Below are positions 28,501-40,500 of a stretch of DNA of 64,000 nt, in pieces. The position numbers were made by a program, and so were the translations under genes. The stretch is from contig JAKCPI010015836.1 in the NCBI GenBank assembly GCA_023213315.1, positions 1 to 64,000 on the forward strand. Direction: 5' to 3'. Source of the stretch: Euborellia annulipes (taxonomy: Eukaryota > Arthropoda > Insecta > Dermaptera > Anisolabididae). The first letter of the stretch is position 1. Each line of letters starts with the position of its first letter. The notes beneath the pieces are model-generated. The model saw only the letters and a list, made by a program, of their open reading frames with translations. It was not told the origin of the DNA and searched no databases.

Positions 28501-31500
28501 CTAAATACCTTTTTAAAACCAATTATCTAAATACAAGATACTTGGATCTTGTGTATCTTAGATGCAAAAGTATCTTAAATACGTACTTTAGATACTTGTA
28601 TCTGGATACTGCCCAACTCTGTGTAAATTATATGTGATTTTAATATAAAGTTCAATCAGCTCACCTGTTAGAGTCTTAATTTCTCCTGTGGCGTTCGCGT
28701 ATAGATAGATCCTGAGAATCTCTGAGAGATTTGTATGTGTAATGTCCGCCTGTTTGAGACTCTGCCCAAGGATAGTAGTATGTCTCGCCGGATTAGGAAT
28801 ACCAGGATCCTCAATGGCGCACACTAAAAGGTGGGTCATCACGGAAAGAAGTTCCTCTTCTGCTTCCTCATCGCAGAGTAGAGCTGACTGCAGACTTGCC
28901 ATACTGGGCAAGCTTTCCATATCTAAAACCAAACAAAAATTAAGTGTTAGATGAATAATAAAGACAAATTTATATGCTTTTTTTATTAAATATCTTTAAC
29001 AAATTGCACCTATAAAATCCTAAACTTCATTTGCACAATTGTAAACAAAACCAATGGCAATGACTTTTTTTCTTATTTTATTCAAAAAAGTGCACAGAGT
29101 AATAATGTTATGATTTAAATAAAGTGGCAGGTCTTTTTTTCCCTACAAGATGGAGGTCTTATCTCAATTTCGATAATAATGCCGCTTGGTTCTTTTATGC
29201 ATAACATCGACCAAATAATTGAGGTCGAGATAAAAAAAAAAAAAAAAACTCCAAGACTTTTAGCAGCCAAACGTATTTAATTATAGCCATACCAGACTGA
29301 CGTATTGATCCCGTGTAGGCCATCTTCAGAGTAAAGGGTATTTCGTTCATTTCATTTGTACAAAATAATAATTATAAATTTTCATTATAATAATTCAATA
29401 ATTACCTCAAAAAAAAATTTTAATTTAGCATGAAGATCCTAACACTTGGGGACAAATAAGAATTTTATTAGCAAAAACATAACATAAACCAATAAATATA
29501 AAAGTTCACTCTATTTTGAAAAAATGGTTAGTTTTTAGTTTTTTATATGGAAGAAAGTAAACTTACCAAAACCAAGAGTTTCGCCAAAGTTATGTAAAAA
29601 CTCAAAAACCATAAGCGTATCTGCAAATGCTTGTCCTGAGAGCCGAAGTCCAGGTACTCGATGAATGGCAGGGAGCGGTTTGTGATCTAAAAAAATACAA
29701 TATTATTAATAGTAAGAAAAAAGAGCATATATTGAATTCTTTTAAAAAAATCGAGACCCAGGATCGGCTCGGATATGTTCAATACAACACGCTATTGACA
29801 ATTTTCAGGTGGGTGATTTTTTAAATGTTAAAAGACAGTTAAAAGTTTCTGATAGATGCGTAGCTTATAAAATAATTAAGTGTAGTAAAATAATTGGGGG
29901 AAGGGGAAATACAGTAAGATTTAAAGTTAATTCTCCCACGATTATTTCATTATTTTTATAAAAAGTGTTGGTAAATTTGCGAGGGTTGGATAAAGAAATT
30001 TCAATTAAATATTTTTGTATTAAAAAAAACAAAAACAAAACAATGAAATAATCGAGTCTTTTCGGCAACTTAGGCCATTTAAGACTTTAAACGATACCCT
30101 TATTTGTAAATATATCAATTGATGTTCCAGGCATTCTTATTTAAGCCATTTGGTATCCAAATAAAATCCGAACCCTCGACCCTTAGTATAGAAGGCAGGC
30201 GAGCTACCCAAGGGCACGAGTGTGTTTACTAAAGCTTTTGTGTTTTGTATATTATTATTATGGGAGTTTAATTTTGTAATGATTATTTATTAAAAAATAT
30301 ATATAAATACTGTTTCGACTACTTATTGTGCAGTCGTTTTCAAATACTGTGCACTGGTAGTTCTAACTAACCTCCTGGGTTAGTTCATTTGAGTGCTAGT
30401 GCACAGTACTTAAAACACGAAATCAGGTCTATAATTTAAAACTCCCATAATAATGAAATAATCGAATATAGAAAACGTATGGGTGGGACAACTTGGGCGT
30501 TAAGGGACAGTGAGCTCCACAATTTTATTTATTTATTTTATTTTACAAATAGGAATGTTCTGGGATTTTATATTTTAGGGGACAAACTATTTACCTTGTA
30601 ATTCCATGTCCTCAACGGGACGGCGAAGTTCCCTAAGCAATTCAAGTTCAATTCTACGCTGTTCCAAGCGTCTTTCTTTGCTAGCCATTTTTTCAGCTCT
30701 GGCTTCTTGACGTTTTCGTTCGCGCTCTTCGAGTCGCTTTCGCGCCTCTAATGCCTTTACTAGCACCATATGTTGACGACGTCTTTCTCGTTCCTGAGAA
30801 AAAACTCAAGATCAGCAGTCATTGTCAGAACATTTAAACAGAAACTAAGCTCAATAACTACAAGACTAGCAAATTACTTTTTCTGAATTTTAAAGATCTC
30901 TGAAGAAATTACTAAATAAATCTCATGCAGTATTAGATAAAAAATAAAAAAATTTCTCAAGCAAATTTATTAACAGGTATTATAATTCAGCTAGAATATT
31001 ATTTATTACTTCAAATAAAATTAAAAATTTGCGTGCAGCTAAAAACAAAATAAAAATAAAGGCATGCTAATAAAACGCAAAGTTATAATTAATATGAAAT
31101 GAGAAGATTTAGGAGTCCCGAGTGAGAAAATGGTCAGGGCATGCCATGACATACCAGTTCGACAGTGTAGAGCATTTCTCGTTGCTTGGTCAGTTCTTGC
31201 ATGTATATCTGTGAGGGGACAGGAGCTGTGTAAGTGTCTGAGTGTCCAGGTCGAGTTAGAAGTGTGGTCAGGAATGGGTGTGTGCGAGTGTGTGTTTAAT
31301 TTTTTTTATTAGCTAGAGCTTGAAGCACACACGCGCACACACCACACTCACACACAGACAGAGAAGAAGTTCACCAAGAGCCAAAGGGGCTGTGGCTCTA
31401 GATGAGTAGACAATTAAATCCCAGAGTCAAGTAGTACCTTGACAGGGTACAAAATAAGCATTTAAACTTGACTCAGGGGATGTGATTCAATTTCTAAAAG

Positions 31501-34500
31501 AATCAAAAGTTCAGCAATCATGCAAATATTAATCAAAATTGAGTAATTTTTCTTTCATTTTGATAAAATACACAAAAAGAAATAGAAGAATTTTCTAAAT
31601 AATTTGCATGATTTACTTTTATAACACTAAAACATTTGAAAAATTTTCGAATTATTAATTTTTATTAAAATATATTTTTTTTTTTAGAATAATATCAAAA
31701 ATCTACTATATTAATTTAAATAAAAAACATGTACTTTAGTAGTAATAGATCAAATAAATCAAAAAAATCACATAAAAATTACAAGAGTTTCTAACAAGAG
31801 TAAGTAATTGATTAATGGTACACGAATTTAGGGTCTTTTTGGAGGACAGGGGGACATACCTGTTCCTTGAGTAGAACAGCCTGTTGTCGTTTGATCTCCC
31901 TCTCCTGCAACCAGAAAGAAAAAAGGTTAATATTACGCGGAGTAATCTTCAAATTGGAAAAAAATTAATCAAATAAAAATAAATATAAAGAGAGAAAAAA
32001 AAGGATGAAAATAAAAAAATAAAATTATTGTCAAGGGAAATTCAAAAATGAAACATAAAAAAAAGAAAAAAAAATTGAATAAGATAGCCTACCTCCGAAT
32101 TTCCCGTTGACAAAATGTGAATATGAATGTGCATATACATATATACATATATGTGTTGTTATTTACATATTTATATATATATATGTACATATATATGAGA
32201 GTGAGGAGATATATATATTAGAAGAGAGAGAGAGAGAGAAAGAGATAGAAAGAGAAAGAGATAGAGAGACGTACCTGTTGCCGTTTGAGTTGATCCTCCT
32301 GGCGTTGTTTCTCGAGTTCCTCGTGACGCCGTCGTCGGGCCTGACGAAGACCAGGCATCGAACCAGGAATCGGCACCACGGACCACACCGACAACACAAC
32401 CAGGACAAACGGGCGTTTCATGCAGTGCAAAACAGCGACCAGATCCAACTAGAGAGGGGGGTTCAGGGGGGAGGTTGGGGGGTTTCGGGGGGGGGGAGAA
32501 GAAGGGGCTGGGCGATGTTCCTAACAAAATCATCATCCTCCTGGTCTGGACCGTTTTTAGTCAGTGATCCGTCTCTTAGTGTGTTTTGTAAAATATGCAT
32601 GCAAGAAAAGCAAGCAAAGACAGGCAACATACCAGTAGACTAAGTGATATGGATTTGGTTGACCCTCCATTGCGAAGCTTAGCTAGTTAGTGCAAAAGGA
32701 AAAAAAAGAGAGAGAGAAAGAGAGTGCACAAAATAATATTAATTGAAGATAGAAATGGTTATAGCATCGAAAGGTGGTTAAAATAATCAACGCCATTATT
32801 TGATTCTATGCTTTCGAAAAAACTACAGCGTACCCCATTATAATTTAATAATAATATTGATGCTTTCTACCATTTCTAAAAAATGTGTCGTCAAATGCTT
32901 TGGGGTATTTGCTTCTTCACTGAATGCAAGCAAAATTAAGCAGGACAACACGTGCTGTCTATTTCAGGATAGGATTAGTCTGGTTTTACTATCGAGATTA
33001 CAACGAGTGGTAAGATAATCCCGTCTGTGCGCGTGATTCCTACATCAACGTTTTAGTCAGTACAGTATTCTAATTTTTAAGGGATTGGCTAGGATGATGA
33101 CAGCAGTTGTATTTATCATTTCCTAATAATCGAGGAAAAAAGGAATTTTAAAATGTAAGCTTATTCTAATAATAATAAAGAAGAGAGCGAGAGAAAGAGA
33201 ACTAAAAGTCTGTGGTCGGATTTCTCCTCGGGTTTTGGAGTATCGGGAGGATACAGGTGAGAGAGTGATGTATTTTATCACAAGGAATAAAGGAATGGGG
33301 ATGGTTCTTACCGTGTCCGTCTCGGCGGCGGTTCCATCCGCATGCGTCTCGTACGCATTCAAAACGCCCGAGCGATTTTTCCATATTGTTGCCACTGTCG
33401 AGCTGGCCAGTCCTAACGCACGACTCACGTCCGACTTGCTTTTGCCAGCCTCGATCTCGCGAATGATGTGCAATTTTTGCTCTAGCGTGAACGCGAGGCG
33501 TTTGCGACCCTGAATCATCAATAGGGACGGACGAGGGGCGACGTTTGTTATTTATTCGATATTGACTTTCCCAGGGACAGGACAAGACACTTGGGAACCC
33601 GCAGGGCTGAGGACGGGGACTCTTCTCTTTTTACGAAACCCTTAATCTGGGTCGCCTTGAGGGTTCCAAGATGCAGGGTGGTTCCAGCTCCAGTCGTGCG
33701 AAAATTATTTCAAAAAATTTGAAATAATTTTATTTTTACACGACACATCAATTACCCTTGATTCAAATAATCATTAAAGTAAATAACATTATGGTCATGC
33801 AAAATATTGTTTGTTTTTTTTATTTTCCCATTTAAGCAACAAAAGCATCAGAGGGTCTCTAATTGGATCTCTTGATTTTCTGGGAGAGCCTAAATTGTTG
33901 CACATGCTCTGATGAGATGATGCCTTGAAGCGCTTATCGCTGGTTAATAAGCGTTTCTTTGGCTGGACCCTATATCTCTTTCTGGCGTTTTTTTTCTCTC
34001 CTCACTGAGGCGTTGATATCAGACATTCGATGCGTCTTAATCAGTTAGCGAATGAGTTAATTAATTAATTTAAAAAAAAGCAATAGAAAGGCATAAAAAA
34101 AGCAGAGAATTTTTTAAGTGGGAGAGAGACCCTGATGGGAAATTAAATGCGTTGCATTAACACCATTTCCATCAACCAATCAATCAAAAACCATAAGAGA
34201 TTAAAATATTAAAAAATATTAATAGAAAAAAAATTATTTATTAAGAAGTGTAATAGTGTGAATTGAAAAAATGAAACTAGAGAAAAAAGAAATATAAAAA
34301 ATATTTATAAATATATATATAAATATAGATATATACAAATATATATATATTTATTTAAAAAAAGCAAGGCATTCAAAAAGCGAAGCATTGTGGAATAAGT
34401 AAGGTACTCTACCTTGGGACTGTGTAGGAGCCTTACTATTTAGGGCAGAAACAACCAAGCAGCCCGGAGTATTTTAAATGATAAATAAAAATTTTAAAAT

Positions 34501-37500
34501 TTGTTTTAAATTGAATTTCAACCAGATTGCTTGGTTATGGCAATTAACCCCAAAAAGATCGCTCGCACGTCAGATAAAGAATAGAATAATAGAAAAACTT
34601 TAAAGAAAGAAAAGGTGACCAAGAGAGTGAGATTGGTGTGAGAAAATAAAATAGAAAAAAGAGATAGAAAAAAAGATAGAGAAAGAGATGGATGGCAAGT
34701 AGCCGGTACCTCCATCAACTGTAGATTTCGTTGTTCTCGCTCTCGCCTGATGGCTTCCTGTCTTTCGCAGCGTTCTTGTTCTTTCATCAATCTGGGGAAA
34801 AAAATAGAAATTTTTTATAAATTTTAGTTTTTGAATTATTAAAATTCGGATTTTTTATTAGTTTAAAATTGTAGAGTAGAATTACGGTATGCTGAAAATT
34901 ATAAAGAAAAGAGCGATTGCAGCAACGTTTATTTCGATTATTAGTCACTTCAACCCGTCGTTTCGGTCAGATATACGACCATCCTCAGGGCTGAAGCGTG
35001 TCAACAAAATTCCTCAAAAAGTCGAATGGCGCAATTGTGTAAATTATTTCTTGCCATTTAATAAGGATCAAAGACCATGGAGCAAGGTTAGATAATACCT
35101 AGACAGCTTGGAATATTGGAGCAATTGCACAATAATGACAATATTGCAGCAACATTGCTGCAATATTGCAGAGCAATATCCCAAGCTCTCTGGGTATTAA
35201 ACCTTACAGGGAATACTGCAGCAACATTGCCGCAATAATCCTGCACGTTACAAAGAGGCGGACATAGGAATATTGCAGCAATATTCCAAGCTGTCTGGGT
35301 AATAAGGTTTGTTCTAATTAAAAATCTGTCTGTGTGTCGGGGTTCAATTTAAAGCATGAGGGAATTGAGCTAGAAGGTTGAAATTTTATATTGAAATTAG
35401 ACACCCACCTAGGGCGTGAAAATATGCTTTTAATCAAAATCGGCTAAAAAGTACTAGTACTTTACTGATGTAGTTTTTCAGTTTTTTTCGATTTTCTCAA
35501 AATTCGCCACCAAGGATTTTGATTAAAATTCAAAAATCAATTTTTTTAGACTGCCCTTTAAAATGTACATTCTCATTTTGCCATTAAAATCTTCTAAAGA
35601 CCACTTTACTCTTGTACTTCATAGAAAATATGGAAGAAATGGTAACAGAATGTAAATATTTTCCCATATTTATAAATTTTATTTTTTGAATTCTAATATA
35701 TCGGCGGAAACTAAATATATGTCGACACAAAAAATCTGGTGCGACAGTCACACCAGATTTTTATTTTAATACTTGTAAATCATGGTTAGTTGTATCATTA
35801 GCATTAGCCGACAAAAAAAAATCTCATACATACACATTTTTAACTTCTCTTTCTTCCTCTTTTATCACTAATTAAAATATCAATTTTTATTTATAAATTT
35901 AACAACAAATTTGATATTTGCATTTTACATTCAAATTAAATAATCATAAATACACATATTTTTCGGTTCATTTGAAAGAATAAAAAAAAAAAAAAGAAGA
36001 ATATTCTAATAAATTTATTAGAATTAGTAGAAGTGGAGGCGTTACCTGAATTGTTCCTTTTGCCGGGCAGCGTCCTCCTTAGCAATTCTCCTGGCCTCTT
36101 GAGCTGCCATCGCCGCTTTGCTTTTCTCAAACTGCTGTTGCAACTTGAGCTCATGCGCCATCCTTTTTTTGGGGGGTGAAAGGTTGTATTTTATTTATAT
36201 TAATTACTATTAAACCGAAAAAATGTGTATTTAATTGTGTTAAAAATTCTCTAAGCTTAAATTCTAAAATTGACCCGATTTTCATAAACAGGACCATGTT
36301 CAAACTCACAAACATTTTTCAGAGATATAATAATTATTCTTACTTTGAACATATTGATAGAAAAACAATTTAGAAATCTAATTCGTTTTGATACGTTGAG
36401 CTTGAAGATGATCTCTAACGAGTTTTGTATTTATAAATATATACAAATATTATCTTTTATTTAGCAGTCAAGTCTGTCATTTAAATTTTTTAAATAATAG
36501 AAATATTTGTATAAAATAATTGCTATTTATAGTCGTTTTTAAAAGGAAGAGGTCATGTACAAGTGATGTCTTTTTTCCATTTTTTAGGTATTACTTATTA
36601 GTAAATTGGTTTTAATGATTTTTTTTTAATGTTTTTGTTTAGTATCAATAATAATATTATTTATTCTATTTAAGAATTAGTTAAGAGAAAGAAAGAATTG
36701 TTTACCATTTTTTGCTTTTCTAATCTAATTATTTATTGGAATTTTAAAGAGATAATAGTAGTATAATCACCTGACTTGCTCCTTTTGTCTAGCAGCTTCC
36801 TCCTTGGCAATCCTCCTGGCTTCTTTAGCTGCCATTGCCGCTTTGCCTTTCTCAAGCTGTTGTTGTATCTTGAGCTCATGCGCCAATCTTGCAGCTTCCA
36901 GCCTGAAAAAATTTAAATCGTTAATGAAAATAATAATTTTTTTTTATTGTTCTAACAGGAAAATTATGATGCTGTTAAATTCATCAATTAAAATTTACTC
37001 CTTATTTTGCTAATTTTTTTTTTTAATTTGTAGCAAATTTGTATAAATGCAAAATTTTAATTGATAAAAATAGGGTGAACATGAGTCAACCTTAATATCA
37101 TTTAAAGCGGTTACAGAGACCATTATAAATGAAATTATATGAAACCTGATTGTTGTTATGAACTTTTGAATATCTAAACATGTCTGAAATTGACTGGCAA
37201 AGCATATCCAATTATAACAATATAGAGTCAACTACTTCAGTTCAATTAGGAAATGAAAAATTAATAAGATTCGTATGCTATGTGGGAAGTCCCTCTATTC
37301 TAATCCAATTTGAAAACGTGTCCAGTTATTCAAGAGTTCTTAGCCTGAGGAATGTAACTATTTATTTAAGAAATAAAAAGAACTTTTGAGAAATGTATTT
37401 ATTATCAATATGAGCAACTTGAAACTGTTAGAGAGTATAGGTAGGTATATGAAATTACTAATAATTTCTAGAGGTACTGTTTAAGCAAACATACCTTGTG

Positions 37501-40500
37501 GCTGGAGTTGGGGGTGGACCTCGCGCGTTCCTCAGGGCTTTGGTCAGACGTAAATCCTCCAAATGTTTTGAAACTTGATCAGCTGAGAGTCGTAAATAAT
37601 CATCACCCATAGATGTCGGCTGAAGGAATTCACCGAGAAGTGTTTTACTACTGAAGCTAAAGTTGTCTCGTGTCAAATCCTTAATTCCATTCTTTTCCAG
37701 ATACTAAAATTTAGAAAACAAAAATGTTACGATTTTTATAAATAACACAGGTCAACAAATTTTTTTTTTTTTTTGTTTCTGTTCTAATGCTGGAATTCTG
37801 ATTCTAGACACCGTAAAACAATTAAATTTCCATTTTTTGTTTTTAAAGTTTGCTTTTGTTTAATTCAAAACAGCCCATACAAACATAAAATAAATACAAA
37901 AAATATTCATTTTACAACTTGATTTCTTGTTATTGTTTATCGCAAATCTTAAATTAAAAACTCCGAATTTCCGCAAAAACTATCCTAATCGTAATCTCTA
38001 TATAATTTAAAATAAAGTTGTATATATAACAATTTTCCCAAAAATTCGAAAAATTACTCTAGTTTCACAAAAGCAAACTTTGATAAAAAATTATTTTTCC
38101 CTTTATTTTTAACGAAGGAGAAACGAAAATTTCATATGCAGAAGCCAGACCCAAAAATCGTGATGACCGGTGTAATTTTTAAGATAAAATAATAATGAAA
38201 ATGGACCTTAAGAACATCAGGGTATTGTTTGAAACGACGACCATCCGGGGAAAAGTAAGCCACTTCGCCACGAACGCCTCCAGTTCTGCTGACTCCAGTG
38301 ACAAGAGTTTCTCTTCGCCATCCTCTTTCGAGAGGAACGCGTAGGAGTACGTCATCACTTGGCTCCATTCTCCGTCGTTTCACAGCTGGACCTATAAATG
38401 ATATATATTTAGAATAAACTTAATATTGTTTTAAATTAAAGGACATACCCTGACCATCGATATCACGACGACCTTCTCCATCCACTCCTTCCCCATGTAG
38501 TGCAGAGGCGTCATCATCTGAGTCGCTAGGAGAACCACACGGGTCTTCAGAACCGCCGCTAACGCTATCGCTGCTTACATCGGGAGGTGAGCTGTCTTCG
38601 CTTAGGAGGTGACCATCGAAGGTCTTAGCGAGGCCTGACAGCATCGAGCCTGGCATTGCAGCTGCTGCCGCCAATACCATGGCCCTCGTATGCGCCTTTT
38701 CGTCGGCGCGAGACACGGACTGAAAATAGAGTTTATATATAAAATTCTATAAATTTTGAATTTTCAATTGAGAGCTTACCAAATGTCGTTTTCGATTATC
38801 GATCTCGTTGTTCAAAATATAAGATTTGTCCATCATCATCATTTCTTCACCTTCACGGTGTGTAATCTCGTCATATTCACCGTGTTCTGTAATCACAAAA
38901 AAAAAAAAATATTATCGTAGAAGAGAAAGATGTCCAAATTGATGTTAAATTACCTTTGGAGAGAGAAGCGTGTTGTAGATGTTGTTGTAGCTGGGCGGCC
39001 TGGATGTTGGCCTTGAGCAGTGATACTTGGTGATTGGCAGCTGAGATCTCGAGACCGGGCGATGGCTTAATACCGAGTGCTCGACTTTGTGCCAGAAGAG
39101 AGGCTACCGTATTCTTTTTCGGCTTAGATACCCCTCGTCCAAGATTCCGAGGACGTCCGTCCTGCACATGATCCAAAAACATACTCTTATAAGTATTAGG
39201 AAGATAAGATTTAAGACGTTTGTCTTGGGGAGGGCACCTTGTGGGGAAGCACCTGAGTGGATTCGCTCTCTTCACTGCCCGATGACGGCCTAGGTGAATC
39301 GGCAGCGGCGAAAAGTTGTGCCAGAGAAGGGCTGGGACTGGCTGGGATAGAGGCAAGCACGCCGGCGCCAGTACCGGTGCTTGAACCGCCCACACGACGT
39401 GGCTTTGGCCCGGGCTTACGACGCGCCGCCGCCGCAGCTGCCGCTGCTGCCGCCGCCGATAACGCCGCTTTGTAACATATAAAAGCAACACGTTAATTCA
39501 ACATCAACCATCTCTTTTCCCCTCTCACTCCTTTTATATGTTCCCTAATTATAAAGCTTGCTCCTTTCTCTCTTAAATCAATACTAATTTGTATACGTAT
39601 TATATACTGAGTGAATATAAAAATTTAATGACATGTTTTTTGTAAACCTTAAAAATAAAAGTGTGTAAAAGTTCCCAAAAAAAGAAAGAAACTCAAAGTA
39701 CTATAAGTTGAGAAAATATAGTCTATATCTTTCGTCGTCTGGAGAATTTGGAAATATTCACAATAATAAGGAAAGGAAGACGAATTCTTGATTTATTATT
39801 GTGAAACTTATTGACAAATGGAAATTAAAAAGTGATAGAAAAGAGACTTTGTGTCTATCTAGTCACTTTTGTTTTTGTAAAGTTCAAGAAAGAGATTATA
39901 TTTACAATTTCTTGAGCCTTTATGAATAGATGACTGTTCGCATATCGAAGAAATAATTTTTGGTCGTCCTGTACTTGTTTTATTTCAAGTTGTTCGGATA
40001 TTAAATCACTAGGAGGTAAATATATATCATATGAAAATTTTCGCCTTTTACCAATTTTAATAAAAAAATAGTTGCAATTTGTCTTGTTTTTTTATATAAA
40101 GATATTTTTTACAAATTACTTGGATAAAATTATTTTAGAAAAACAAAAATAAAATTATTTATATGAAATATTAATTAAAACTCTTATTTCTTTGGCTTTC
40201 TTTTTTTTCTTAATCAAAACTATTATTTGAATAAATTAAAATTAATAATAATTTATAAATAAATTGTATCCAAGGTATATTGTATCTAGTAGAAATTAAT
40301 TTATTCATTTGAGAAATATTTTTTTTTTAATTTAATAATTAAAAGATAATTTTTGTTGTGATAAAAAAAGAAAATTAAAAAAAAAATTAAATTTAATAAT
40401 TTTTCCATATTGTATTAAATTTTTTTAAATTAATTTATTTTTCAACTTTGGACCCCATCCCTATTTATTTTATTTGATTGATTGCCTAAATTTCTGCCGC

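Follow-up and report, generated by a model that had tools for sequence, protein, structure and literature searches.

BAZ2 proteins help decide where an ISWI remodeller acts, and their targeting in vertebrates is attributed to contacts made through RNA, the TAM domain, AT-hooks, PHD and bromodomain. We know of no HTH between the TAM and DDT domains of the human BAZ2 proteins. The vertebrate transcription factors that arose by transposase capture are host-transposase fusion proteins, and the first HTH of CENP-B-type proteins may on its own bind DNA weakly. In human Baz2B, nucleic acid binding has been attributed to the TAM domain and adjacent AT-hooks, according to one study (PMC10783490). Another report describes alternative splicing of the ISWI partner NURF301 as altering what the complex reads (PMC2705796), a precedent for exon choice in an ISWI partner changing chromatin reading; histone binding changes there, whereas DNA reading would change in the case described below.

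Here we analyze a window of 64,000 nucleotides from Euborellia annulipes, in which a CENP-B-type HTH is encoded by a predicted exon of a BAZ2 gene. The HTH resembles the CENP-B/pogo-Tigger DNA-binding domain (CENP-B_N; structures 1bw6 and 1hlv) in that it corresponds to the first HTH there, has a basic N-terminal arm and aligns over its full length. It differs in context, as the insect BAZ2 proteins P0032 and P0084 contain neither the second HTH (HTH_Tnp_Tc5) nor a DDE domain in a domain scan, and the HTH is an exon inside a remodeller subunit. As in host-transposase fusions, a transposase-type DNA-binding domain is, in gene models, spliced to a host regulatory protein, but the host is an ISWI-partner subunit and the domain is internal. 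The gene is the same as vertebrate BAZ2A/BAZ2B (TIP5), with TAM, DDT, WHIM/WSD, PHD and bromodomain, but the insect protein has an HTH between TAM and DDT.

Results

We concatenated translations of exons from the window, with approximate boundaries and some exons omitted, into a sequence of 894 residues. Because it scores in Pfam for MBD/TAM, DDT, WHIM1, WSD, two PHD stretches and a bromodomain, we identify the host gene as BAZ2/toutatis. The TAM domain (residues 17-82 of the concatenation) is followed by CENP-B_N (195-242) and DDT (401-460). The features of the locus are given below; exon numbers are those of the earlier note on this DNA, and only part of the exon ends are fixed.

38135..38419, minus strand: TAM/MBD exon within an open frame, exon ends approximate (sequence, domain scan)
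34710..34791, minus strand: BAZ2 exon 16, coil LMKEQERCERQEAIRREREQRNLQLME (sequence and alignment to relatives)
33516..33518, minus strand: ATG put forward earlier as a start (intron end by comparison with relatives)
33510..33511, minus strand: AG of the predicted splice acceptor (sequence; Q in 17 of 18 read-through frames of relatives)
33312..33509, minus strand: HTH exon, 66 codons, phase 0 at both ends (Pfam, relatives with both junctions, splice context)
33310..33311, minus strand: GT of the predicted splice donor, ACG/GTAAGA (sequence)
32275..32340, minus strand: BAZ2 exon 17, coil ARRRRHEELEKQRQEDQLKRQQ (sequence and relatives)
31860..31904, minus strand: BAZ2 exon 18, coil EREIKRQQAVLLKEQ (sequence and relatives)
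31155..31208, minus strand: small in-frame BAZ2 exon IYMQELTKQREMLYTVEL (sequence; present or absent depending on the model)
30595..30793, minus strand: BAZ2 coil exon ERERRRQHMVLVKALEARKRL...VEDMELQ (sequence and relatives)
29567..29686, minus strand: exon carrying the N-terminal part of the DDT domain (sequence, domain scan)

The HTH is contained in a minus-strand frame of the window that runs for 142 codons without a stop (33551-33123). Translated, bases 33518-33312 match Pfam CENP-B_N with an E value of 6.3e-12 and 45.4 bits, above the curated cut-off of 21.2, and cover positions 1-49 of the 53 in the profile. The structures of the human CENP-B DNA-binding domain, 1bw6 (E 0.0007) and 1hlv (E 0.0013), match the same HTH. 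The exon is composed of a 50-residue CENP-B_N core (GRKRLAF...KNRSGVL) and a 16-residue linker; by Pfam, it holds neither a second HTH (HTH_Tnp_Tc5) nor a DDE domain. Its acceptor side reads ...CTATTGATGATTCAG/GGTCGC (gatgattcag/GGTCGC), with the closing CAG translating as Q before GRKRL, and its donor side reads GACACG/GTAAGA, in phase 0. The flanking sites are likewise in phase 0, both the donor of exon 16 at 34710 (ATG GAG/gtaccg), which is a weak consensus, and the acceptor of exon 17 at 32340 (ttcgtcag/GCCCGA). The exon is 198 bases long and, since both its ends and its neighbours are in phase 0, frame-neutral in the manner of a cassette exon. The earlier note had described a 66-codon CENP-B-type HTH on the BAZ2 strand, with phase 0 at both ends, the donor ACG/GTAAGA and a usable acceptor, all of which we find in the window. 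Its range of 33312..33518 holds for 33509-33312 as an exon; the first nine bases, 33518-33510 (ATG ATT CAG), are the end of the intron, judging by the relatives.

Rfam gave no match over 32000-36000. Opposite exon 17, a partly low-complexity plus-strand frame stays open for 186 codons (32083-32643); its sole Pfam match falls below the cut-off, and it is probably open by chance. Within the intron, repeated palindrome-like motifs (ggaatattgctgcaatattcc) were spotted by eye at 34900-35380.

A first protein search with a 69-residue query returned eight proteins that are 67-88% identical across the matched part. In a second search the query had 230 residues but scoring was confined to the HTH, and 22 of 26 candidates had E ≤0.01. 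Among these 30 relatives, 18 read-through frames reach upstream of GRKRL, and the preceding residue is Q in 17 of them and K in one. Many genomic relatives run beyond the linker into VR or VC, presumably by reading through an unspliced gtaaga or gtatgt donor. In P0025, a Timema podura gene model, HTH and linker are followed by ARRRRQEELDKQRQEEQLRKQQ, which is BAZ2 exon 17. Five of the genomic frames (P0018, P0019, P0021, P0023 and P0024) share a YWASL...TQ stretch upstream of the HTH, which may mark a conserved element where the intron ends.

A third search used a 1864-residue BAZ2 query that included the HTH and was again scored on the HTH alone; it returned 57 of 111 candidates at E ≤0.01. 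All 57 are BAZ2 proteins by Pfam labels and names, and CENP-B_N is labelled in 56 of them. They represent 49 species by printed names, five of these with several rows, and are database gene models, mostly automated; as 42 of the 57 are hymenopteran, the rows are not independent. We assign them to Phasmatodea (2), Orthoptera (1), Hemiptera (2), Neuroptera (1), Coleoptera (9) and Hymenoptera (42). The exon is thus annotated in BAZ2 proteins of stick insects, a cricket, bugs, a lacewing, beetles (Tribolium among them), bees, wasps and ants. Flies, moths and non-insects are absent from these 57, the list of a single search. In P0032, the order is TAM (656-727), HTH (840-886) and DDT (1045-1104).

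In 55 of the 57 models GRKRLAF comes immediately after exon 16, exon 17 follows the linker in 55 (50 by pattern; P0057, P0058, P0066, P0072 and P0078 by eye), and both junctions are present in 53. The exceptions are P0040 from Gryllus, which has no clear exon 17, P0050, from which exon 17 is missing, P0075, with 20 extra residues ahead of the HTH, and P0087, which lacks the 5' half of the HTH. A search at the same place in relatives, proposed earlier, thus locates the HTH between the same BAZ2 exons in annotated insect proteins, and the gene models bear out both the predicted in-frame splicing from exon 16 through the HTH to exon 17 and the layout of a host-transposase fusion joined in frame to a host protein.

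The same comparison bears on the suggestion that an alternative promoter gives rise to an isoform whose first exon is the HTH; this isoform would start at the ATG at 33518 and be a BAZ2 protein with an N-terminal HTH and no TAM domain. An in-frame ATG does lie two codons ahead of GRKRL, as it does in P0001, and the G+C content is 0.51 in 33519-33710 against 0.30 farther upstream. However, the relatives run from exon 16 straight into GRKRL, a methionine occupies the place of the ATG in only one of the 18 read-through frames (that of P0001), and P0031, with just 43 residues ahead of the HTH, still includes exon 16. Since the exon of the relatives begins at GRKRL and the preceding Q is what a CAG closing the intron would give, the start at this ATG finds no support, and we consider such an isoform very unlikely.

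We compared the HTH with other segments of the protein in 13 representatives. Identity of the 50-residue core to the window is 76-88% (mean 0.80), and conservation is equal or higher in PHD1 (0.89), exon 18 (0.82) and DDT (0.81). The remaining segments reach 0.75 (bromodomain), 0.72 (exon 20), 0.71 (exon 16), 0.57 (exon 17) and 0.48 (TAM), where means are lowered if some models are without that segment. Of these representatives, Gryllus and Timema have the TAM and exon 16 most similar to those of the window, which suggests that its species is probably a polyneopteran insect. Mean pairwise identity over nine sequences is 0.82 in the core and 0.27 in the linker. The same 50 core residues recur in 33 of 42 hymenopteran rows, and 29 of 50 positions are invariant over 16 distinct cores, clustering in GRKRLAF and STVATIWK. 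From GRKRL to exon 17, the length varies between 57 and 216 residues in the 49 rows measured. With a frozen core and a linker variable in sequence and length, the HTH appears to be held fixed while its tether drifts. Core identity of 76-88%, the identical core of 33 of 42 hymenopteran rows and an unconserved linker together indicate old, strongly constrained coding sequence, in keeping with the earlier view that the retained frame argues against simple decay. Judged from these comparisons, the HTH exon is evidently an old insect feature and no local event.

It is quite possible, at somewhat less than even odds, that the HTH is a constitutive BAZ2 exon, always included and with no splice switch. 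It is whole in 56 of the 57 returned models and partial in the other, and constraint on its core is close to that on DDT. But a search scored on the HTH could return just models that have it, some models bear names such as isoform X3 or X4, and the donor of exon 16 (gtaccg) is weak. Neighbouring small in-frame coil exons also vary between models: IYMQELTKQREMLYTVEL is present or absent, and in Temnothorax longispinosus exon 17 is missing from P0050 and present in P0058.

We examined where the HTH may have come from. A 601-base DNA query over the exon, run against the 903-Mb assembly, found itself, one 31-base match within the window and no other copy; the exon DNA is single copy in the Euborellia annulipes genome. 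A CENP-B_N family search of the genome gave at least 89 matches at E ≤0.01 including the HTH exon, with 150 of 241 candidates scored. The best-scoring other HTH is 38% identical, and the highest identity among weaker ones is 42%. No relatives were found by tblastn in viral contigs (44 pattern matches) or prokaryotic contigs (77). A tree was built from 13 BAZ2 HTHs, human CENP-B and 21 other HTHs of the genome, these 21 being kept, with two of fewer than 45 residues dropped, out of 88 other family matches and 25 from an identity search. The BAZ2 HTHs form one clade with support of 98/98 (54 columns, bootstrap unsettled). The simplest account is a single capture before the sampled orders split. 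Family membership suggests transposon descent, but no close transposase turned up: the best-scoring other HTH of the genome is 38% identical, and the three protein searches covered lengths outside about 403-1024 residues, the excluded range being that of typical transposases. The second HTH and DDE domain that together mark a Pogo/Tigger (CENP-B-type) transposase were found in none of P0032, P0084, the window exon and ten neighbouring open frames. The HTH was probably captured from a transposase. Elsewhere in the genome, a 529-residue open frame (L003; G000 contig C5817) holds three CENP-B_N stretches and a Tc5-type HTH; the HTHs, at about 37958-39127, form a tandem array with no DDE domain within the frame.

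These data also address whether the HTH lies outside BAZ2 altogether, as a nested transposase, a separate intron gene or the remnant of a decaying transposon. Domains of this type are characteristic of transposases, and at least 88 other family matches at E ≤0.01 occur in the genome. Against this stand the single-copy DNA, the frozen core, the 57 models in which the HTH is fused with exons of BAZ2 and the lack of any Pfam transposase domain in the ten open frames nearby, where the earlier note had likewise seen no catalytic domain. We regard an element separate from BAZ2 as highly improbable, and reject a separate nested gene in the intron because P0025 and 57 long proteins join the HTH to BAZ2 exons.

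Discussion

Our analysis favors, with a probability of roughly 0.8, an internal phase-0 BAZ2 exon that is predicted to be spliced between exons 16 and 17 and likely gives the remodeller subunit an extra DNA-reading head in its coiled coil. BAZ2 would have acquired an HTH of the pogo/Tigger/CENP-B type, without the second HTH and without the DDE domain, ahead of the divergence of the sampled neopteran orders. Inclusion of the exon would place a DNA-binding head between TAM and DDT, where contacts with DNA may be made by the basic arm GRKRL and by STVATIWK, a segment that is invariant. The remodeller could then be steered to, or held at, particular sequences, besides its TAM, PHD and bromodomain contacts. 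As the flanking phases are all 0, the exon could be skipped without loss of frame, and skipping by splicing would switch DNA reading off. We infer a DNA target, a function and exon skipping from the sequences.

Alternatively, the HTH fold may have been kept as a protein-protein or helix-spacing module and not as a DNA reader. Of the two HTHs that make up the bipartite CENP-B-type domain, only the first occurs here, as one might expect of such a module, but the invariant residues cluster in the basic arm and in the stretch aligned with CENP-B PPSTLSTILKNK, which we take to be the CENP-B recognition helix; we consider a module of this kind unlikely. Within the DNA-reading interpretation, a more far-reaching proposal, which we put forward tentatively and with some doubt, is that capture of the HTH from a mobile element before the neopteran orders split produced a splice-switchable, sequence-guided BAZ2, in which one exon would decide the reading of a fixed motif by a NoRC-like complex, possibly at repeats as for CENP-B.

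An HTH in BAZ2 was not described in the titles and abstract starts of the open-licence literature searched, and BAZ2 is not mentioned in main-text passages of a survey of transposon-derived transcription factors across animals (PMC10027918). Databases tag CENP-B_N in BAZ2 proteins automatically through Pfam labels; the feature is therefore recorded but, within the literature searched, not described. The HTH in this remodeller subunit is ancient and has been overlooked. On our assignment, at least six insect orders have the HTH-BAZ2 fusion in common. With a frozen transposase-type HTH, insect BAZ2 would gain direct sequence reading. This would be an old capture of single origin, and one made by a remodeller subunit, not by a classical transcription factor. 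If flies and moths are without the HTH, as their absence from one list hints, work on Drosophila toutatis would, if this is true, have missed a targeting layer.
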